Source: an uncultured Saprospiraceae bacterium
GTDB lineage: Bacteria; Bacteroidota; Bacteroidia; Chitinophagales; Saprospiraceae
Direction of reading: 5' to 3'
DNA length: 64,000 nucleotides
NCBI GenBank assembly: GCA_937981555.1
Contig: CALJOK010000012.1
Span: 62,001-126,000 of the forward strand
Below the pieces are notes generated by a model. The model searched no databases. It saw nothing but the letters and a program-made list of their open reading frames with translations, and was not told the origin of the DNA. The translations under genes and the position numbers were made by a program. Positions 3,001 to 63,947 of the stretch are shown in pieces (the stretch's first letter is position 1; every line of letters begins with the position of its first letter).

Positions 3001-5636
3001 GAAATGGTTGTTCCACTTCTCAAAATGTTACGCTTACCGAACCTCTTGCAATTACTGTTGATCTTTTATTAATACAAAACACACTTTGCAATGGCGAAAA
3101 CTCAGGTGCTATTTCAGTCAGCGCTGGTGGAGGAATTGGTCTATTTGAATTTTCTCTTGGCAATGAGACCAACACAACAGGGACTTTTGAAAATCTTAAC
3201 GCAGGAACTTATAACATTATAATTACGGACGAAAACGATTGCCAAAATTCTGTCGAAGCAACAGTCGAAGAACCAAACACGATCAATATCGAAACATTAC
3301 AAATTCAAAATCTGTTTTGTAACGGAGATGATTCTGGTGCTATTAATTTTAATGCAAATGGTGGCGTTGGAAATTTATTTTTCACACTAGGAAATGAAAC
3401 TAATTCATCTGGTGAATTCGAAAACCTTGCAGCAGGAACTTATGAAGTCATCGTAACGGATGACAATGATTGCACTAATTCTATGTCCTTCGAAATCAAT
3501 GAGCCACTACCTTTGGAAGTCAATTTAATGCAAAGTCAAAATGTACTTTGCAATGGAGATAATTCTGGGTCGATCAACTTAAATACTTCTGGTGGAACTG
3601 GAAACATCCAATTCTCTTTAGGAAATGAAACAAACGCAACTGGTATTTTTGAAAACCTCACAGCAGGAGCTTACGAAATCATCGCAACTGATAACAATAT
3701 GTGCACGTCTTCTATCGAAGTCAACATTTCGGAACCAACTGCTATTGGTCTAACCATTAGCAATTTGCAAGATGTTACTTGTCAAGGAGAAAATGATGGA
3801 GGCATATTTATTGTTGCAAACGGTGGAAATGGAAATTACACCTACACTCTTGGTAACGAAACTAACTCAACTGGCACTTTTGAAAATCTCTCTTCGGGTA
3901 GCTATACCATTATAGTTACAGATGAAAATGATTGTCAAAATTCTATCGAAACAAATATTTCCGAACCACAACCAATCGTACCCAACATCGAATTTACCAA
4001 CTCAATCCTATGTGCTGGTGAAGCAACTGGAGCAATCGCTACAACTGCCACAGGAGGCAACGGAAACTTCGAATATACTTTAGGAAATGAAACAAACTCA
4101 AGTGGTGTTTTTGAAAATTTAGAAGGTGGGATTTACATCATCTCGATTATCGATCAAAATAATTGTAGCTCAACTATTGAATTTGAAATTGACGAACCAC
4201 AACAAATTTCTACTTCAATTTCTCAAACTCAAAACATCCTTTGTGCAGGCGATTCATCTGGTAGTTTTGAAATAAATGCAACAGGCGGAACGGGTGTACA
4301 CATTTTTATTTTGAATGGAAATTCAAATTCTACAGGCGTTTTTGAAAACTTAAATGCTGGTACTTTTGAAGTAACCATCTTAGATGAAAATGATTGTGAA
4401 ACTACCGAAACTATTTCGCTTACCGAGCCTGACGAATTAATTTTAACTTTGGAAAACACCCAAATGGCAGATTGCGCAGGTGCCACCACAGGAAGTTTTG
4501 GAGTGCAAGCTTCTGGCGGAATGGGGAACTACACTTATTCGATTTCCAATCAAACGAATTCAAATGGAATCTTTGAAAACCTAGCATCTGGCGTTTACGA
4601 TTGCCTCGTGACGGATGAAAACAATTGTACATTTTTGCTTCCCGTTACCATCAATGAGAATAATGATATTGAGTTAAATGAATTCAATAATACAAATACT
4701 GAATGCTTCGGAGATGAAAATGGAAGCATCTCAATTTCAGTTACTGGCGGAATAGGAGACTTTACTTTTTCTCTGGGAAGTGAAACTAATGCAACTGGTA
4801 TTTTCCAAAATCTTCCTGCTGGAATTTATAATGTTACGGCAACTGATATCAACGATTGCTCTGCTATTTTCTCTGCACAAATTACCGAACCAGATGTATT
4901 AGGAATGTCAACTGATGAAATCATTAATGTGCCTTGCTTTGGAGAAAGTACTGGTTCAGTTCAACTTTTGGCAACTGGTGGAACAGGCAATTTCGATTTT
5001 TCTATAAATGGAAATTCCAACGCCACAGGGCTTTTCGAAAACTTACCTGCTGGAATTTATGATGCATTGGTAACTGACGAAAACAATTGTAACAATACAA
5101 TTACATTTGAAATCACCGAAGCTCCCGAACTCATTTTTGCTATCACAAACATAACGAACGATACGGGCAACGGAAATGGAAGTGTCACTTTTGAGGGCGC
5201 AGGCGGAACATCACCTTACCTATTTTCTTTGGATGGATTCGATTATCAGGAAGGAATGACCTTCTCTATTTTATCTGCTGGAAATTACATCGGCTACATT
5301 CAAGATGCAAATGGCTGCATCATCGAAAGTCAATTTGAAATTATTTTGGAAACGTCAATTTCTAATCCAGATTTAGGTATTTTAGAAATGAATGTTTTCC
5401 CAAATCCTTTTTCTGAAAAAATTATTTTACATATGGATCTAGTTTTTGCACAAACGATCAACTTGGAAATGATTAATATTTCAGGACAAACTATTTTACA
5501 AAAAATAACCAATATTGAAAGTGGTAAACAAAATATTAACCTCGACGTTGAAAATAATATCCCCGCTGGCATTTATTTTTTAAGTGTAAAAAATGAAGAT
5601 CAAGCAATCGGTTATTTTAAAATAATTAAACAGTAG
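3..5636 (+). CDS. SprB-repeat surface protein with T9SS sorting domain (5' partial)
   Basis: The reading frame is open from the first bases of the window, so the N-terminus lies outside it. The visible protein begins with an LVIVD-like beta-propeller segment (short DVSDP/DVSNP and DISNY units), as in choice-of-anchor-B proteins. About twenty tandem SprB-type repeats of roughly 77 residues follow, each with a CxG...DG/NG start, an inner GG, a FxNLxAGxY core and a second Cys near DxNxC. One degenerate cysteine-free repeat closes the array. The last 80 residues are a type A T9SS sorting domain (VFPNPF ... GIYFLSV). Known SprB proteins are mobile cell-surface adhesins used in gliding. Here secretion and surface attachment through T9SS are well supported, but a gliding role is only inferred. 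A subtilisin gene follows 29 bp downstream. Confidence 0.9.
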   Translation, partial: DVSNPSSPNFLASYTGEPGYNHSSWVTPDGNTAFYAREVGTGLPMTALDISNYNDIEVVSNFQFPLLAPNSTDNTPHNPYLVGDYLYTSYYEDGIEVFDVSDPANVTLAGYYDTYPSNTQYNGYNGCWGTYPFLPSGRILGSDGVNGLFLLGTSFTSVPPLELNLVSQTNISCNGGSNGIIEVAANNGTPPYTYSLVGGTSQSNGIFTNLSAGTYIMEVTDADNDIEDIIVTITQPDPITPIIIQQQNVTCNGGIDGSISANAVGGTVASNYLYSIDGTNFSPNNLFTNLSSGVYALTIRDDNNCEAILPFTISQPDPLQSFINSQTEVDCFGNNSGSIEFNTIGGTQNYLYSLDQMNYQASSSFSNLPAGNYTLHTLDANNCTSQTPFSISEPDLLEISVNQQTNLGCFGDTDGEVMLDGQGGTGNYQYNIDGGNYQTSATFNNLTAGSYDFNIKDANDCMASLNITITSPPEIDVQISEIIQVECFGGNTGSVTLQLSGGAGNFSTTMNGNTVTGSTVVFQNLTAGTYPILIEDGNNCTTIESVIINENAEVQLFLTSAQNVTCNGNSDGTIEVNVVGGNGGYIYSINGTPNGSNNIFTNLSAGQYSISTMDDLGCEDLITVDITEPSAIQINLISQINESCSGANDGSVIFQANGGVGNFQYTLNSTTNSTGIFTNLSAGNYNVVILDGNSCVENLPFLIDSANPIAAQIDTQTEVDCFGNNNATIQVSASGGNSNFTFNLGTQSNSTGFFQNLTAGNYTISITDGNNCQTTIGATISQPSEISPSVANSQEVNCFGENNGSFQIQASGGTGSYNFSMGNETNSTGVFENLAAGTYTISITDENNCFSLFSTTVFQPEMITSSISASQNVNCFGENNGSLQIQASGGVGNLNFTLGNETNSTGLFENLSVGNYNIIITDENNCSTSSSYEISEPTELISEILQTNPIDCAGGNNGMIQFEANGGTGSYQFSLNGQTNSTGLFENLAADDYMMNLTDGNGCSTSQNVTLTEPLAITVDLLLIQNTLCNGENSGAISVSAGGGIGLFEFSLGNETNTTGTFENLNAGTYNIIITDENDCQNSVEATVEEPNTINIETLQIQNLFCNGDDSGAINFNANGGVGNLFFTLGNETNSSGEFENLAAGTYEVIVTDDNDCTNSMSFEINEPLPLEVNLMQSQNVLCNGDNSGSINLNTSGGTGNIQFSLGNETNATGIFENLTAGAYEIIATDNNMCTSSIEVNISEPTAIGLTISNLQDVTCQGENDGGIFIVANGGNGNYTYTLGNETNSTGTFENLSSGSYTIIVTDENDCQNSIETNISEPQPIVPNIEFTNSILCAGEATGAIATTATGGNGNFEYTLGNETNSSGVFENLEGGIYIISIIDQNNCSSTIEFEIDEPQQISTSISQTQNILCAGDSSGSFEINATGGTGVHIFILNGNSNSTGVFENLNAGTFEVTILDENDCETTETISLTEPDELILTLENTQMADCAGATTGSFGVQASGGMGNYTYSISNQTNSNGIFENLASGVYDCLVTDENNCTFLLPVTINENNDIELNEFNNTNTECFGDENGSISISVTGGIGDFTFSLGSETNATGIFQNLPAGIYNVTATDINDCSAIFSAQITEPDVLGMSTDEIINVPCFGESTGSVQLLATGGTGNFDFSINGNSNATGLFENLPAGIYDALVTDENNCNNTITFEITEAPELIFAITNITNDTGNGNGSVTFEGAGGTSPYLFSLDGFDYQEGMTFSILSAGNYIGYIQDANGCIIESQFEIILETSISNPDLGILEMNVFPNPFSEKIILHMDLVFAQTINLEMINISGQTILQKITNIESGKQNINLDVENNIPAGIYFLSVKNEDQAIGYFKIIKQ
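490..5340 (+). repeat. Tandem SprB-type repeats (about 21 units of about 231 bp)
   Basis: Twenty cysteine-containing units and one degenerate final unit follow one another without spacers. Units from about 2150 to 4600 are the most alike, sharing a GNETNSTG...FENLxAGTY core at protein level and several near-identical stretches at DNA level. This suggests expansion or gene conversion in the middle of the array, with older, more divergent units at the two ends. Confidence 0.85.
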
Positions 5637-5665: not shown

Positions 5666-7450
5666 ATGAAAAAATATTCAATATTTTTAATCTTAAGCTC
5701 TATTCTATTTTTAACTTGGACAGCTTTCACTCCTTCAGAAAACACCAACTTTGAAGACGAAAATTGGGAAGAAAAAATCTCTCCCAAACTCATGACCAAA
5801 GCTCTCCGAGGAGAAGCTTTAGATTTTTTAGTTGTTTTAAAAAATCAAAAAAATGTTAGCGCATCTCAAAATTTCAAAACGAAAGAAGCTCGTGGAAATT
5901 TCGTTTACGAAAAATTAAAAACCAATGCGCAAGCTGACCAAAAAAATATTTTAAAAGTTTTAAAAAATGCTCAGGCATCCTACCAATCATTTTTCATCAT
6001 CAATGCCATTCAAGTAAAAGGTGATTACAACCTCCTTCGAAAATTAGCAACATTGCCAGAAGTCAACCAACTGACCGACAACTCCCCTATTCAATTCGAG
6101 GAACCTGTTTCAACTAATTACACTAACGAAAGAGGGCCAACTGCTATCGAATGGGGAGTTGATATGATTGATGCCGAAGAAGTTTGGGCGCTCGGATTCA
6201 ATGGTCAAAATGTCATTGTTGGAGGTCAAGATACTGGTTACGATTGGACACATCCAGCCCTCAGTCAAAAATATCGCGGCAATGGAACGACCATCGATCA
6301 TAATTATAATTGGCATGACGCCATTCATGAAATCAATGCCAACGCACAAGATTCGATTAATCCATGTGGCTTAGATGTGCAATATCCTTGCGACGATCAT
6401 AATCACGGAACTCACACGATGGGGACGATGGTCGGCGAAGATGGCGATAACCAAATCGGAGTTGCCCCTGGTGCAAAATGGATTGCTTGCAGAAATATGG
6501 AAAGAGGAAATGGTACGCCAGCAACTTACATCGAATGTTTCGAATGGTTTATGGCACCAACCGATTTGAATAATGAAAATCCAGATGTCTCAAAAGCACC
6601 TCACGTAATTGCCAATTCTTGGAGTTGTCCAACTTCGGAAGGTTGCGATTCTACGAACTGGCATATCATGGAAACCGTTGTACAAAATTTAAAAGCATCA
6701 GGAGTTGTCGTTGTCGTTTCAGCTGGAAATAGTGGTAGCCAAGGTTGCGGAAGTGTGAGTACTCCTGCCGCAATATTCGAAGCAAGTTTTAGTGTTGGCG
6801 CAACTGCGCAAAATGATACAATTGCAGGTTTTAGTAGTCGTGGCCCGGTGACGATCAATGGAACTGGCATTCGAAAACCAAATGTTTCTGCACCTGGAGT
6901 AGCTGTACGATCTTGCATTCGAGATAGTAGTTATGCTACTTATAGTGGTACAAGTATGGCTGGTCCGCACACCGCAGGATTGGTTGCTCTGATGATTTCT
7001 GCAAACCCAGATTTGGCAGGACAAGTAGAAGTTATTGAAGATATTATTGAACTAACTGCTGTTCCAAAAACAGATACTTTAGATTGTGGTGGAATTTCAA
7101 GTCAAGATATTCCAAACAATATATATGGCTACGGAAGGATTAATGCATTAGCTGCTGTGAATGAAGGGCTTAACTTTTCCACAACCTATAACAATGAACT
7201 TACAAATATATCAGTTAATACTTTCCCAAATCCAACCAGCGATTTTATCTCATTTGAATTTTTTAATTTATTGGGGAAAACGGATTTGGAAATTTATGAT
7301 GCAGCAGGTCGATTATTGCAATCACACCAATTTGATTTGCTAGAATATCAAATTGAAAAAATCGATTTAAGTGCTTTTTCCGCTGGTGCTTATTTTTATA
7401 CCATAAGAAATAAGGCTACTGAAAAGACGGGAAAGATTTTCAAAAATTAA
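5666..7450 (+). CDS. Secreted subtilisin-like (S8) serine protease with T9SS sorting domain
   Basis: A signal peptide (residues about 1-20) is followed by an inhibitor-I9-like prodomain (about 45-145) and an S8 peptidase domain. The triad is visible: Asp189 in QDTG, His247 in HNHGTH and Ser430 in SGTSMAGP, with oxyanion Asn355 in SAGNSG. The C-terminus (about residues 515-594) is a type A T9SS sorting domain with the FPNPT motif and a GAYFYTI ending. The enzyme should be exported and cleave extracellular protein. It lies 29 bp after the SprB-repeat gene on the same strand, so the two may be co-transcribed, and processing of the adhesin is possible but unproven. The prodomain and all catalytic residues are intact. 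Confidence 0.93.
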   Translation: MKKYSIFLILSSILFLTWTAFTPSENTNFEDENWEEKISPKLMTKALRGEALDFLVVLKNQKNVSASQNFKTKEARGNFVYEKLKTNAQADQKNILKVLKNAQASYQSFFIINAIQVKGDYNLLRKLATLPEVNQLTDNSPIQFEEPVSTNYTNERGPTAIEWGVDMIDAEEVWALGFNGQNVIVGGQDTGYDWTHPALSQKYRGNGTTIDHNYNWHDAIHEINANAQDSINPCGLDVQYPCDDHNHGTHTMGTMVGEDGDNQIGVAPGAKWIACRNMERGNGTPATYIECFEWFMAPTDLNNENPDVSKAPHVIANSWSCPTSEGCDSTNWHIMETVVQNLKASGVVVVVSAGNSGSQGCGSVSTPAAIFEASFSVGATAQNDTIAGFSSRGPVTINGTGIRKPNVSAPGVAVRSCIRDSSYATYSGTSMAGPHTAGLVALMISANPDLAGQVEVIEDIIELTAVPKTDTLDCGGISSQDIPNNIYGYGRINALAAVNEGLNFSTTYNNELTNISVNTFPNPTSDFISFEFFNLLGKTDLEIYDAAGRLLQSHQFDLLEYQIEKIDLSAFSAGAYFYTIRNKATEKTGKIFKN

Positions 7451-60765: not shown

Positions 60766-60799
60766 TAAAACCAACTTTTTCTTTTCCAATAATGAATTG

Positions 60800-60873
60800 T
60801 ACTCCTGACGGGGTTCGAACCCGCAATCTCTGCCGTGAAAGGGCAACGACTTAACCAGTTTGTCCACAGGAGC
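60800..60873 (-). tRNA. tRNA-Glu (UUC)
   Basis: Acceptor GCTCCTG pairs with CAGGAGT (one G-U), discriminator A. GAC/GTC D-stem, anticodon loop CTTTCAC, T-loop TTCGAAC. It is the last gene of the array in the direction of transcription, and CCA is not encoded. Confidence 0.92.
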
Positions 60874-60915
60874 ATGTGAGAATTCAGAATATCCAATCTC
60901 CAAGTATTCCCAAAG

Positions 60916-60988
60916 TTACCCCGATAGGAATCGAACCTACAACCCACGACTTAAAAGGTCGTTGCTCTGCCAGTTAAGCTACGAGGTA
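60916..60988 (-). tRNA. tRNA-Lys (UUU), copy 1
   Basis: Acceptor TACCTCG/CGGGGTA, discriminator A, anticodon stem ACGAC/GTCGT with loop CTTTTAA, T-loop TTCGATT. A second Lys-UUU gene in the array (63327) shares the acceptor but differs in the stems. Confidence 0.92.
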
Positions 60989-61010
60989 ATTTTAAAATTT
61001 GTCAATCATG

Positions 61011-61081
61011 CGAGAGTATAAGGATTCGAACCTTAGCGTAACGGTTTTGGAGACCATCCGACACAGCCTACGCTTACTCCC
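61011..61081 (-). tRNA. tRNA-Trp (CCA), atypical D-arm
   Basis: Acceptor GGGAGTA/TACTCTC, discriminator G (usual for Trp), anticodon stem ATGGT/ACCGT with loop CTCCAAA, T-arm TAAGG/CCTTA. Only 71 nt. I could not fold a normal D-stem, so it is divergent from host-type tRNA-Trp. Confidence 0.8.
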
Positions 61082-61104
61082 ATTTTAATTCAAAGATGAA
61101 TTTG

Positions 61105-61175
61105 TCATCTTGCTAGGATTCGAACCTAGACCGCAACATTCAAAGTGTTGCATGCTACCATTACACCACAAGACA
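61105..61175 (-). tRNA. tRNA-Gln (UUG)
   Basis: Acceptor TGTCTTG/CAAGATG with two G-U pairs, discriminator A, anticodon stem CAACA/TGTTG with loop CTTTGAA, T-arm CTAGG/CCTAG. 71 nt. Confidence 0.9.
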
Positions 61176-61223
61176 ATTTTAGTCTTGTTGCTGGATTTTA
61201 TTTTTCATCATAAAAAAATTTAG

Positions 61224-61297
61224 TTGCGCAGAAGGGACTCGAACCCTTAGCTCAGGCTTATGAGACCCGAATGTTTAACCAGTTACACTACCGCGCA
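61224..61297 (-). tRNA. tRNA with CAU anticodon (probably elongator Met)
   Basis: Acceptor TGCGCGG/CTGCGCA is paired at position 1-72 (T-A), arguing against an initiator tRNA. Anticodon loop CTCATAA, T-arm AAGGG/CCCTT, discriminator A. A lysidine-modified Ile2 is an alternative, but a UAU tRNA-Ile is also in this array. Confidence 0.88.
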
Positions 61298-61339
61298 TTA
61301 TTTTATTTGAGTACGTTTAATTTTTAAAAATACTCTTCG

Positions 61340-61411
61340 TGGCAACATGGGAATTGAACCCTACCCTCTGGTTTTTCAGACCAACGCTCTCACCTTGTGA
61401 GCTATGTCGCC
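61340..61411 (-). tRNA. tRNA-Phe (GAA), damaged T-stem
   Basis: Acceptor GGCGACA/TGTTGCC, D-stem GCTC/GAGC, anticodon stem TTGGT/ACCAG with loop CTGAAAA, discriminator A. The T-arm keeps only GGG/CCC around TTCAATT, and a base appears missing from the 3' side. Folding and function may be impaired. Confidence 0.82.
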
Positions 61412-61439
61412 ATATTTTATAACACTACATTTACAATTG

Positions 61440-61513
61440 TCTTGACGGACAGACTCGAACTATCATCTAACTGCATATAAGGCAGCGGCTCTGACCAATT
61501 GAGCTACATCAAG
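61440..61513 (-). tRNA. tRNA-Ile (UAU)
   Basis: Acceptor CTTGATG/CGTCAAG, discriminator A, D-stem GCTC/GAGC, anticodon stem GCTGC/GCAGT with loop CTTATAT giving anticodon UAU, T-arm GATAG/CTGTC. Most bacteria read AUA with a lysidine-modified CAU tRNA, so a genomic UAU is uncommon. Confidence 0.88.
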
Positions 61514-61517
61514 ATTA

Positions 61518-61676
61518 GGGAGTCGTCAATAAATAACATACCATTTTCACTTGCTATATTTTCCTCATGCTGCGTTAAAAAGCCTCGCCAATGCTCAGGT
61601 ATTGTCTGTGTTTTTTGCCTTGCCTGAGAAAAATATAACTTCGCAAAAACTGGTAGTTTATTTATTGACTATTCCC
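61518..61676. mobile_element. MITE-like palindromic insertion
   Basis: A 159-bp non-coding element whose left half is an imperfect reverse complement of its right half over most of its length. Terminal inverted repeats begin GGGAGTCGTCAATAAATAA on the left and GGGAATAGTCAATAAATAA on the right arm, and it is flanked by direct TTA triplets (possible 3-bp target duplication). It lies between the Ile-UAU and His tRNA genes. A 3-bp TTA-type duplication would fit mobilisation by an IS5/Harbinger-like transposase, but none is in the window. Confidence 0.65.
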
Positions 61677-61681
61677 TTACG

Positions 61682-61754
61682 TTCTGTCAAGTGGAATCGA
61701 ACCACTATCATCTGCGCCACAAACAGATATTCTAACCAATTAAACTATGACAGA
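61682..61754 (-). tRNA. tRNA-His (GUG), no encoded G-1/C73
   Basis: Acceptor TCTGTCA/TGACAGA is perfect. D-stem GTTT/GAAT, anticodon stem TCTGT/GCAGA with loop TTGTGGC, T-arm AGTGG/CCACT. The flanking pair is T(-1)/A73 in place of the usual G-1/C73 identity pair of bacterial tRNA-His. Confidence 0.85.
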
Positions 61755-61825
61755 ATTTTAATACTTTATATTTTTTTGAAAAAACATAACAATACATTCA
61801 CGTATTATATTTTTCATTTCCTTAG

Positions 61826-62720
61826 AAAAAAAGAACTTGAGAATACAGTCTTTTGTGGACAAACTTTACACAGATTATGGTTGATGTTGCTGCATCAATG
61901 TTCCTGTGGTTTCCACTTCCTTCTGTCGCCAGATTGAAGTATAAGTCCAATGCCTTTTTTGTTTCCGAAGAAACTACGTTGCAATTGATCGGCACCTTAG
62001 ACGTGGCCTGTATAGCGGCTCTTTGTCCGCCCTTTACAGTTACGAGGGTTGGCTCCCCCACCATTAACAGCCGATACCTTGCGATACGGAACTGATCGAA
62101 TGTGCACCATGTACATGAACCTTGCGGGAACTCGTACCCCATATATTTCAATGGGTTTAGGCATCTACTACATTGCAACGCTCGAGACTTTCGCTTATAT
62201 TATTAAGACAGGAATTGAACCTGTGACTCCCAGCTTTGAAGGCTAGTGTTCTACCAACTGAACTACTTAAAAGCAAAATGCTTTCGGACATTCGGAAGAA
62301 GTGTCTCGAGAATGGCTCCGTAGATTTTCGCCTACAGAATACCAAAACTCCTTCCTGCAAACCTCTCGGTTCACGATATTTCAGGATAACGATTCGTTGC
62401 CAAACGGATACCCTTGATATTGAATCACGCTAACATAAAAGTGGATAACAATTATGTAACAATAATTCTACAACTTTCCCTATTGATGTCTCCATCTCAA
62501 CTTCGATGTCCTTCTCGAAGTATGTTGATCCCCTTCCCTCAGCGGTCGCCCCCAGGAATTGAATACAACACGATAGTTGCTTGCTTACTCAAACTTCTCC
62601 GAAAAGAAGTCTCCAATGCTGTTACTTCAACATCAGATTTATACCAGTTACCCGGTTTATTTGAGGACAGTAAGCTGCCCCGACTTTAGAAAATGCAAGC
62701 ACTAACTATTATCGATTTTC
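61826..62720 (-). ncRNA. Candidate large structured non-coding RNA enclosing a UCA tRNA
   Basis: About 0.9 kb without a credible ORF. On the minus strand it folds into a series of local hairpins. Examples (plus coordinates) are 62593-62610 (7-bp stem, UUCG loop), 62500-62521 (7 bp), 62485-62496 (GAGA loop), 62319-62336, 62277-62292, 62138-62155, 62071-62089 (GCAA loop), 62015-62030, 61961-61974 (5-bp stem, UUCG), 61922-61933 (GCGA loop), 61906-61916 and 61881-61898 (6-bp stem). The tetraloops are of the GNRA/UUCG type only when read on the minus strand, the strand of the tRNA genes. CTCGAGAC (plus 62303-62310) pairs with GTCTCGAG (plus 62181-62188) around the UCA tRNA, so both flanking blocks seem to be one RNA. 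A T-run lies at its 3' end. Size and setting recall GOLLD/ROOL RNAs, but I cannot confirm the family. Confidence 0.7.
62200..62272 (-). tRNA. tRNA with UCA anticodon (opal suppressor / Trp-UCA type)
   Basis: Acceptor TTTTAAG/CTTAATA (one T-T mismatch), D-stem GTTC/GAAC, anticodon stem CTAGC/GCTGG with loop CTTCAAA, T-arm ACAGG/CCTGT perfect, discriminator A. At 73 nt with a short variable loop it is not tRNA-Sec. The anticodon loop equals that of tRNA-Trp except for U34. It sits inside the large structured RNA. Confidence 0.85.
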
Positions 62721-62723
62721 TTA

Positions 62724-62744
62724 AAAATATTCAATGAATATTTT
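62724..62744 (-). terminator. AT-rich hairpin between tRNA-Ile and the large RNA
   Basis: AAAATATTC and GAATATTTT (9-bp perfect arms, 3-nt loop). On the minus strand it is followed by TTAAG. It may terminate or process the upstream tRNA transcript and marks the probable 5' boundary of the large RNA. Confidence 0.45.
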
Positions 62745-62747
62745 CTG

Positions 62748-62820
62748 TTCCGAAGGATGGATTCGAACCATCAGCCTCCCGCGTATCAGGCGATTGCGCT
62801 AACCGTTGCGCCACATCGGA
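62748..62820 (-). tRNA. tRNA-Ile (GAU)
   Basis: Acceptor TCCGATG/CTTCGGA (one mismatch), D-stem GCGC/GCGC, anticodon loop CTGATAC, T-arm GATGG/CCATC, discriminator A. Confidence 0.88.
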
Positions 62821-62894
62821 TTGTTGAGGGATTAAGAACTAAATAATCCCTTATTTCATAGTGTGAAAAATATTCTAACAATACTTTTACATAG

Positions 62895-62967
62895 AGCCGG
62901 TAACCGGTCTCGAACCGATAATCTCTTGATTACAAATCAAGTGCAATACCTATTATGCTATACCGAC
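62895..62967 (-). tRNA. tRNA-Thr (UGU)
   Basis: Acceptor GTCGGTA/TACCGGC, D-stem GCAT/ATTGC region, anticodon stem CTTGA/TCAAG with loop TTTGTAA, T-arm ATCGG/CCGGT, discriminator T. Confidence 0.9.
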
Positions 62968-62972
62968 TTTCG

Positions 62973-63044
62973 CGACTTGAGTAGGAGTCGAACCTACAAT
63001 CAACACTTTAACAAAGTGGCGCTTTACCATTTAGCTATCAAGTC
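62973..63044 (-). tRNA. tRNA-Asn (GUU)
   Basis: Acceptor GACTTGA/TCAAGTC perfect, discriminator G, D-stem GCT/AGC, anticodon loop TTGTTAA, T-arm GTAGG/CCTAC. Only 5 bp separate it from tRNA-Thr. Confidence 0.9.
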
Positions 63045-63060
63045 ATTTTTCCAAACAATG

Positions 63061-63134
63061 TAGCAATGGTGAGATTCGAACTCACAACCTTCTCCGTGTA
63101 AAAGAGCTGCGCTAAGCCATTGCGCCACATCGCT
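63061..63134 (-). tRNA. tRNA-Val (UAC)
   Basis: Acceptor AGCGATG/CATTGCT, D-stem GCGC/GCGC, anticodon loop TTTACAC, T-arm GTGAG/CTCAC, discriminator A. Confidence 0.9.
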
Positions 63135-63155
63135 ATTTTCCAAACAATTTCTTAG

Positions 63156-63229
63156 AGTGCACGATTGGATTCGAACCAACACATCCGAGATTTGCAATCT
63201 CGTCCCTTAGCCAGTTTGGGTACATGCAC
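63156..63229 (-). tRNA. tRNA-Cys (GCA)
   Basis: Acceptor GTGCATG/CGTGCAC, discriminator T (Cys identity), D-stem CCC/GGG, anticodon stem CGAGA/TCTCG with loop TTGCAAA, T-arm GTTGG/CCAAT. Confidence 0.9.
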
Positions 63230-63326
63230 ATTTAGAAATAACCAATTTCCAATTTTTGTTAAAAAGTTAATTTTGTAACTCCTTGAATGTTCACCATTCC
63301 TTGTTGAATATTGGATATTCCCGTTG

Positions 63327-63400
63327 TTACCCCGATGGGACTCGAACCCATAACCCGCGGTTTAAAAGACCGCTACTCTAGCCAGTTGAGCTACGAGGTA
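63327..63400 (-). tRNA. tRNA-Lys (UUU), copy 2
   Basis: Acceptor TACCTCG/CGGGGTA, D-stem GCTC/GAGT, anticodon stem GCGGT/ACCGC with loop CTTTTAA, T-loop TTCGAGT, discriminator A. Confidence 0.92.
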
Positions 63401-63407
63401 ATAAAAG

Positions 63408-63494
63408 CGGAAGAGGTGGGAGTCGAACCCACACGAGTCGTTAGCTCCTAACTGTTTTCAAGACAGCGACCACCGCCGTTTGGCTTGCCCTTCC
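63408..63494 (-). tRNA. tRNA-Ser (UGA)
   Basis: A class II tRNA of 87 nt with a long variable arm. Acceptor GGAAGGG/CTCTTCC, discriminator G, anticodon loop CTTGAAA, T-arm GTGGG/CCCAC. Confidence 0.92.
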
Positions 63495-63508
63495 TTTTTT
63501 CCTAATGG

Positions 63509-63597
63509 AGGAGAACAAGGGGATTGAACCCTCACCTCAACTAATCGAGGTCTCGCTTAGCAGGCGAGCGCAGCAAACCAATATCTGCCTATTCTCC
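63509..63597 (-). tRNA. tRNA-Ser (GCU)
   Basis: A class II tRNA of 89 nt. Acceptor GGAGAAT/GTTCTCC, anticodon stem CTCGC/GCGAG with loop CTGCTAA, a long variable arm ACCTC...GAGGT and T-loop TTCAATC. Position 73 reads T instead of the usual G, and the next bases are CCA, the only such case in the array. Confidence 0.9.
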
Positions 63598-63637
63598 ATT
63601 TCTATTTTAAATCTGACTTTTCAGATTTTGTATTTTG

Positions 63638-63708
63638 AGCGAACAATCGGATTCGAACCGATATACCCTGATTGGAAGCCAGGAATTCTGCCTTTGAACT
63701 ATGCTCGC
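63638..63708 (-). tRNA. tRNA-Gly (UCC)
   Basis: Acceptor GCGAGCA/TGTTCGC, discriminator T, anticodon stem CCTGG/TCAGG with loop CTTCCAA, T-arm ATCGG/CCGAT. 71 nt. Confidence 0.9.
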
Positions 63709-63725: not shown

Positions 63726-63947
63726 TTATTCATTGCTAACAAATGTTCCTTCTTTCTGAGCTTTCTTTATGTATCTCATGAACATCATTGCTTTATCCTT
63801 TTTCAAAAATGTAGCATCTCCTATATCATCGATCGGCACAGGAAAAATGAAATTTTCTCCCTCGTACTCTATAGAATAGTATAAATGGTCTTTCCGATAA
63901 TATTTAAAATGAACTACATTGTTTTTTATTAATTCTACTAATCTCAT
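63726..63947 (-). CDS. Small phage-like protein inside the tRNA array (73 aa)
   Basis: An ATG-started ORF ending in TAA between tRNA-Gly and the next tRNA, on the tRNA strand. The protein has MRLVELIKNNVVHFKYYRKD, a PVPIDDIGDATF core and KAMMFMRYIKKAQKEGTFV at the end. From memory this resembles small conserved hypothetical proteins of T4-like and other tailed phages, not host proteins (moderate certainty). No signal peptide, no TM segment, function unknown. It is the only credible protein gene in the array and hints at phage ancestry. Confidence 0.72.
   Translation of the reverse strand: MRLVELIKNNVVHFKYYRKDHLYYSIEYEGENFIFPVPIDDIGDATFLKKDKAMMFMRYIKKAQKEGTFVSNE

Follow-up and report, generated by a model that had tools for sequence, protein, structure and literature searches.

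A chromosomal GOLLD RNA from Saprospiraceae with a tRNA-like element in its linker

GOLLD RNAs are usually borne by phages or prophages and, to our knowledge, their cage structure is known but their function is not. A 2020 study by Morgado et al. reportedly deals with the GOLLD of Mycobacterium tRNA arrays. In the sections of PMC12286853 drawn on here, cryo-EM of the env-38 GOLLD revealed a 14-mer cage composed of a cap and a ring, in which the linker (nucleotides 497-538 of 833) was unresolved or disordered and faced the cage interior; ribosomes were pulled down with GOLLD, and the discussion mentions that tRNAs sometimes sit in the linker, possibly as cargo. The same sections describe ROOL as a cage-forming large RNA that is often found near tRNA islands. 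In Mycobacterium aubagnense, according to the relevant part of PMC6582537, GOLLD is expressed at a low level and a pseudo-tRNA inside it was not detected. Since the parts of both sources used here describe it, a GOLLD with a tRNA in its linker is a known arrangement. Our searches of the open-licence literature turned up neither a Bacteroidota GOLLD nor decoding loss across linker tRNAs, and the string "Bacteroid" is absent from the main text of PMC12286853. Here, we describe what is, as far as our searches show, a new chromosomal GOLLD lineage in Saprospiraceae, in which the linker holds a tRNA-like element at 21 of the 23 distinct loci.

The window is the whole 64,000-nucleotide stretch of DNA that was analyzed, from an uncultured Saprospiraceae bacterium. 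An earlier note on it had proposed that two structured blocks flanking a UCA tRNA form, with the tRNA as a domain, one large RNA of ~0.9 kb resembling GOLLD or ROOL, or possibly a new class in Bacteroidota, and had called for a comparison with Rfam models. At gathering thresholds, Rfam lists only tRNAs in the window. With a permissive threshold, a search of the 1.4 kb from 61500 to 62900 matched the GOLLD family (RF02032) on the minus strand from 62355 to 61834, spanning model positions 1-416 of 416 with 130.1 bits and an E-value of 1e-35; across the whole 7.25-Mb genome (117 contigs) the E-value was 1.3e-35 and this match was the single one. The UCA tRNA is an insertion within the unpaired linker of the model. 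The guess of a GOLLD-like RNA was therefore right, and its ROOL alternative fell away: ROOL, HEARO and OLE were absent among the seven Rfam matches up to E=10 in the same 1.4 kb. The window RNA resembles ROOL in its predicted cage and its nearness to tRNAs and differs from it in having no ROOL match up to that E-value. The GOLLD score does fall short of the 150-bit gathering cut-off of RF02032, which is an automatic listing rule and not a biological feature. This shortfall could speak for a new RNA class of similar size, a reading that we regard as extremely improbable given that the match is full length at so low an E-value, that a locus in 5 of 150 genomes of the family reaches the cut-off, and that the 3' motif is common to 94 viral stretches. 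By homology, the RNA belongs to GOLLD and represents no new class from Bacteroidota; only an artefactual match could still rescue the new-class proposal.

The features of the locus are collected in Table 1. The folding energy of the region 62746-61755 had a z-score of -4.1 relative to shuffled sequences, none of which (0 of 20) folded as low. The true 5' end of GOLLD may lie as far upstream as ~62740, and on the minus strand no promoter-like site was found immediately before the 5' end. At least five consecutive T residues lie close behind the GOLLD 3' end in 10 of 14 loci, as counted by eye. A terminator scan passed over the U-tract at this end of the window's gene and picked out 62637-62612, within the 5' domain, instead (2 sites found versus 1.8 expected).

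Table 1 Features of the GOLLD locus, in positions of the window
Feature	Position	Strand	Evidence and remarks
U-tract CUUUUUUU, possible weak terminator	61826..61833	-	Immediately behind the GOLLD 3' end
GOLLD 3' domain with linker	61834..62355	-	RF02032, full length; both-sided changes at 76 of 121 predicted pairs
Enclosing helix, 3' strand (GUCUCGAG)	62181..62188	-	13/13 paired; both-sided changes at 4 of 8 pairs
tRNA-like element	62200..62272	-	ARAGORN; RF00005, 64.5 bits; 20 of 22 other loci have an element at the corresponding site
Possible small hairpin AAAGC-AUUUU-GCUUU	62270..62284	-	Read from sequence; would compete with the outer acceptor pairs
Enclosing helix, 5' strand (CUCGAGAC)	62303..62310	-	Pairs with 62188-62181; 13/13 paired
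GOLLD 5' domain	62356..62692	-	Conserved from GGCAGCUUACUGUC on; 13 relatives aligned; both-sided changes at 57 of 100 predicted pairs
tRNA array around GOLLD	60799..63708, on beyond the window to contig position 126601	-	ARAGORN; all 20 amino acids
73-aa ORF within the array	63726..63947	-	phrog_20427, phage family of unknown function, E 2.5e-19

The earlier note had also asked for covariation in homologues. We aligned 13 loci of the window's subtype and assessed covariation with RNAalifold and pair counts. Both blocks that flank the tRNA proved to be structured, conserved and covarying. The 5' block has a mean column identity of 74%, and the both-sided changes tabulated for either block are those seen in at least one sequence; throughout the 13 sequences of the lineage the 5' block forms a separate structured domain upstream of the 3' domain, likened to the published one by its size. 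Without guidance, the consensus fold of the 3' block yielded the enclosing helix together with the element's D, anticodon and T arms; it lacked the acceptor stem. The arms CTCGAGAC and GTCTCGAG, which had been picked out by complementarity, are where they were reported and form the 8-bp enclosing helix. The five tetraloop hairpins noted before exist on the minus strand (checked by eye), and two of them, GAGA (62485-62496) and GCGA (61922-61933), recur as helices in the consensus folds. When the enclosing helix and the three tRNA arms are taken together (22 pairs), 286 of 286 cells are paired and 15 of the 22 pairs changed on both sides. Across 500 shuffles, none matched the observed share of paired cells, counts of both-sided changes or covariation score, and slid versions of the 22-pair set were at most 46.2% paired. 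The number of further pair types, one of the five measures, counts against this result, being unexceptional (56 of 500 shuffles). Because the sequences are related and the structure was derived from the very alignment on which it is scored, these figures are supportive and are not to be read as probabilities.

The UCA tRNA of the earlier note was confirmed at 62272-62200. Its anticodon loop, CUUCAAA, has seven nucleotides with U33 and is canonical, and its score is on a par with those of the array tRNAs; this last point counts against a purely structural role. The acceptor stem has six of its seven pairs. ARAGORN labels the gene a selenocysteine tRNA. We rejected this label: the element is 73 nt long with a 5-nt variable region, and it matches RF00005 with no RF01852 hit at that place. 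A GCTT/AAGC extension of the acceptor stem, proposed earlier, is doubtful and not supported as a unique pairing, since a possible alternative pairing of GCUUU with the nearby upstream AAAGC (62284-62280 with 62274-62270) would take up the first bases of the acceptor. Similar hairpins can be found by eye in loci L124, L113 and L120.

After removal of duplicates, our set comprised 23 distinct loci, 14 in a first set and nine more. Only L129 and L139 have no element at the linker position, indicating that the cage does not need it. Among 13 aligned elements, all 14 pairs of the D, anticodon and T arms are kept in every one, and 11 of the 14 pairs changed on both sides. By contrast, seven of these 13 have a non-canonical anticodon loop, defined as one that lacks U33 or is not 7 nt long. 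In the first 14 loci, six loops are canonical: the window's own (UCA), L117 (UGA), L120 and L114 (both GAA), L123 (UAG) and L127 (CUU). Five others carry A33 (L113, L124, L118, L126 and L112), and three are of the wrong size, with 8 nt in L116 and L115 and 6 nt in L111. L113 and L124 are the closest relatives of the window's element, and both retain UCA, but with A33. In the second subtype, four of seven loops are canonical (L130, GAU; L131, GUU; L132, CAU; L134, UUU), and for this reason some elements may be real tRNAs; L141 has C33, L140 a loop of six or eight nucleotides, and L133 is ambiguous (L132, L133 and L140 were read by eye). Altogether, the 21 elements divide into 10 canonical loops, 10 non-canonical loops and the ambiguous one, and about half of the relatives have thus lost the canonical loop.

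As a control, we inspected 127 array tRNAs from the 14 loci. U33 is present in 124, and 123 have both U33 and at least four of five stem pairs. The difference in loops between elements and array tRNAs gives a Fisher p of 2.8e-8, or 2.6e-7 with the ambiguous loop scored as canonical, among loci that are related. The control tRNAs were chosen by ARAGORN, which favors canonical tRNAs; ARAGORN itself finds 11 of the 14 elements, of which five are canonical. The parser used for the arms of the elements requires D and T pairing. The acceptor stem, with shifts allowed, is fully paired in 1 of 14 elements, the others having four to six pairs, and in 105 of the 127 array tRNAs. We also considered whether Leu- and Ser-type anticodons are out of place in elements with a short variable arm, but dropped the argument because Leu tRNAs of the array itself likewise span 72-76 nt. 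Such array tRNA-Leu genes without a long variable arm are seen at L099:5961-6035 and 6222-6296 and in L113, L124, L118, L120, L114 and L123, whereas other tRNA matches elsewhere in the genome, taken without assignment of isotype, measure 82-88 nt. ARAGORN calls a tmRNA across the GOLLD gene at L134:1538-2104, which is probably artefactual and due to the tRNA-like element.

These loops bear on whether the linker holds a genuine tRNA gene, opal-reading or other, that would be cut out by RNase P and 3' processing enzymes and leave GOLLD as two halves or as a precursor or store. The canonical loop of the window's own element, its score and the 10 canonical loops of the lineage all favor this possibility. 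We nevertheless consider it unlikely: an equal number of loops lack U33 or depart from 7 nt, among them the UCA loops of the two closest relatives; a complete acceptor stem occurs once in 14; UGA serves as a normal stop in 5 of the 48 ORFs of the window; and in M. aubagnense GOLLD was seen while the tRNA inside it was not expressed, as stated in the part of PMC6582537 used here. The element resembles an opal suppressor in bearing UCA in a short tRNA body and differs from one in its imperfect acceptor stem, its linker position, the A33 of its nearest relatives and the use of UGA as a stop by the host. Because its loop is canonical, the window's own copy may yet be a working tRNA, and the case against decoding by this copy rests on the relatives, the imperfect acceptor and UGA as a stop. 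We rank opal suppression second, behind a structural domain.

Comparison of related loci revealed how fast the element changes. Between L118 and L114, sequence identity is 94% outside the linker and averages 97.9% in seven shared array tRNAs, but is 64% in the element. The window's locus and L113 share 95% outside the linker, 95.1% in 17 array tRNAs and 84% in the element; for the window's locus and L124 the values are 96%, 97.0% (14 array tRNAs) and 89%. The gap is smaller for L113 and L124 (95%, 92.9% in 16 array tRNAs, and 86%). Counting against a general rule, L118 and L141 are 87% identical outside the linker and 86% within it, and the element is therefore not faster in every pair. In this pair, 58 flanking nucleotides of the element are identical by eye, while three of the seven loop positions differ, with A33 in one and C33 in the other. 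Such comparisons suggest that the element is sometimes replaced and sometimes altered only in its loop.

Replacement of the kind suggested by L118 and L114 would be expected if the linker were a neutral landing site, which array tRNA genes enter repeatedly and in which they decay, the fold persisting through recent captures. The position of GOLLD among tRNAs, the variation in isotype between loci and the two loci without an element are in keeping with this model as well. The persistence of all 14 arm pairs, most of them changed on both sides, in elements of which more than half have non-canonical loops argues against neutral decay. So do the difference in loop but not in arms between L118 and L141 and the limited resemblance of the elements to the array tRNAs of the 14 loci, with 80% identity as the best match. 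On balance, a neutral landing site seems quite unlikely.

The GOLLD gene lies on the minus strand between tRNA-Ile(GAU) and tRNA-His, in an array of 25 ARAGORN genes that includes the UCA element; all are on one strand, and 18 fall within the window. The usual association of GOLLD with tRNA genes thus holds here. The usual phage or prophage setting, an association that does not define GOLLD, was not seen among the 19 proteins in and around the array. Of these, 18 flanking proteins have ordinary bacterial domains or none (Pfam, PHROG), and none of the 18 matched an integrase, terminase, portal or capsid. Pfam domains near the array include regulators, a lipoprotein transferase-like (LGT) protein, a radical SAM (MiaB-like) protein and others, and the PHROG matches are generic (kinase, regulator, beta-lactamase fold) except for the 73-aa ORF. 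The "phage-like setting" of the earlier note accordingly held up in part: this ORF matches a phage family, but its 18 neighbors show no phage hallmark. Beyond these 19 proteins, a decayed prophage may still be present in the wider surroundings.

In locus L113, from the same genus, the 73-aa ORF is 93% identical over 72 aa, and the flank of the array that encodes a hybrid kinase, the LGT protein and the MiaB-like protein is preserved at 81-92% identity. GOLLD is nearly isolated in L112 (17 kb) and L115 (18 kb), where ARAGORN finds one and two genes respectively, the element of L115 being counted. Near GOLLD, L127:3001-7434 encodes a homologue of DUF5916 (44% over 840 aa) along with a weak MiaB-like match; DUF5916 and MiaB are also found beyond the window's own array, possibly a shared neighborhood. 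Within the array, the ends of the ~165-base spacer at 61521-61673, between tRNA-Ile(UAU) and tRNA-His, resemble an inverted repeat by eye (GTCGTCAATAAATAA / TTATTTATTGAC), whereas these two tRNA genes are 4 bases apart in L113.

Like the published GOLLD (RF02032; env-38), the window RNA covers all 416 positions of the 3' model, has a similarly sized 5' domain, places a variable linker at the corresponding site and lies near tRNA genes. It differs in being chromosomal with no recognizable phage hallmark genes nearby, in a linker that nearly always carries a tRNA-like element, and in its lineage-specific sequence. The Mycobacterium GOLLD, as presented in the part of PMC6582537 used here, likewise sits inside a large chromosomal tRNA array and has a predicted pseudo-tRNA within its gene; it belongs to another phylum, and in the present lineage the fold and loop of the element were compared across 21 loci.

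We searched for GOLLD in three taxonomic samples. It was found in 6 of 40 near relatives and, with stricter filters, in 15 of 150 Saprospiraceae genomes (the source genome is included in both counts); among 198 genomes across the phylum, also with stricter filters, the source genome was the only one. A DNA pattern from just 3' of the linker matched 13 genome contigs, of which 12 are GOLLD, eight by Rfam match and four as the same contigs that carry already matched loci. The thirteenth, L125 (Algoriphagus), fits the pattern without a GOLLD match and was dropped. L130 and L139 are two different GOLLD genes on one contig (G247:C44:1268-1741 and 3004-3478), 1.3 kb apart; they share one tRNA array, and one has a linker element and the other does not.

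Among viral contigs, the 3' motif identified 94 candidate stretches; L077 and L098 were checked with Rfam, and the others are GOLLD by motif alone. The parser found no tRNA-like element in the 87 viral loci that had 430 nt or more of upstream sequence and fell into 29 clusters at 90%, just as it found none in the control stretches (0 of 66); ARAGORN found one linker tRNA among the viral loci, in L098. From these counts, a linker tRNA is rare in the motif-selected viral sample and near-universal in the chromosomal lineage. Three DNA patterns of the lineage matched 0 viral contigs each. DNA similarity to phages gave 128 records, but the 20 listed all fall at query positions 514-575, inside the tRNA, and are uninformative about GOLLD. 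On viral contigs with the GOLLD 3' motif we also observed a tmRNA call (L041:3292-3665) and a tRNA with anticodon CUA (L077:2659-2733).

We favor, with a probability of roughly 0.6, a composite reading in which a single cage-forming GOLLD RNA carries its linker element as a tRNA-shaped structural domain of the lumen, with a docking or bait role, and not as an opal suppressor. The RNA, ~0.85-0.9 kb long, would be transcribed from the minus strand, and its 5' and 3' domains would fold like the published 14-chain cage with its cap and ring. Because the element is a linker domain closed by the 8-bp helix, it would project into the lumen, with up to 14 copies per cage. Selection in the lineage would keep the tRNA fold, that is, the D, anticodon and T arms, and not decoding. 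Because about half of the cases look unable to decode, the element more likely belongs to the cage RNA than acts as a functional tRNA; the canonical loops kept in the other elements, including the window's own, count against this structural reading, as do the two loci without an element and its near absence from viral GOLLD linkers. More tentatively, the element may act as bait or as a docking site for a factor that recognizes the tRNA body or the anticodon arm, with the ribosome, a tRNA-processing enzyme or a tRNA-attacking enzyme as candidate partners. A more specific version, in which the lumen presents a fast-changing tRNA decoy whose body is conserved and whose anticodon loop is driven to diversify by an arms race against toxins that cut tRNAs or against defense nucleases, and in which a GOLLD retained on the chromosome beside a full spare set of tRNAs is a translation-protection module, strikes us as rather improbable.

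The lineage shows GOLLD retained on Bacteroidota chromosomes with no recognizable phage genes close by. If the structural-domain reading holds, it would also imply that there is selected content on the lumen side of the cage. A tRNA shape kept in the lumen without decoding would offer a concrete handle on the function of GOLLD, and it names testable candidates among the factors that grip tRNAs.
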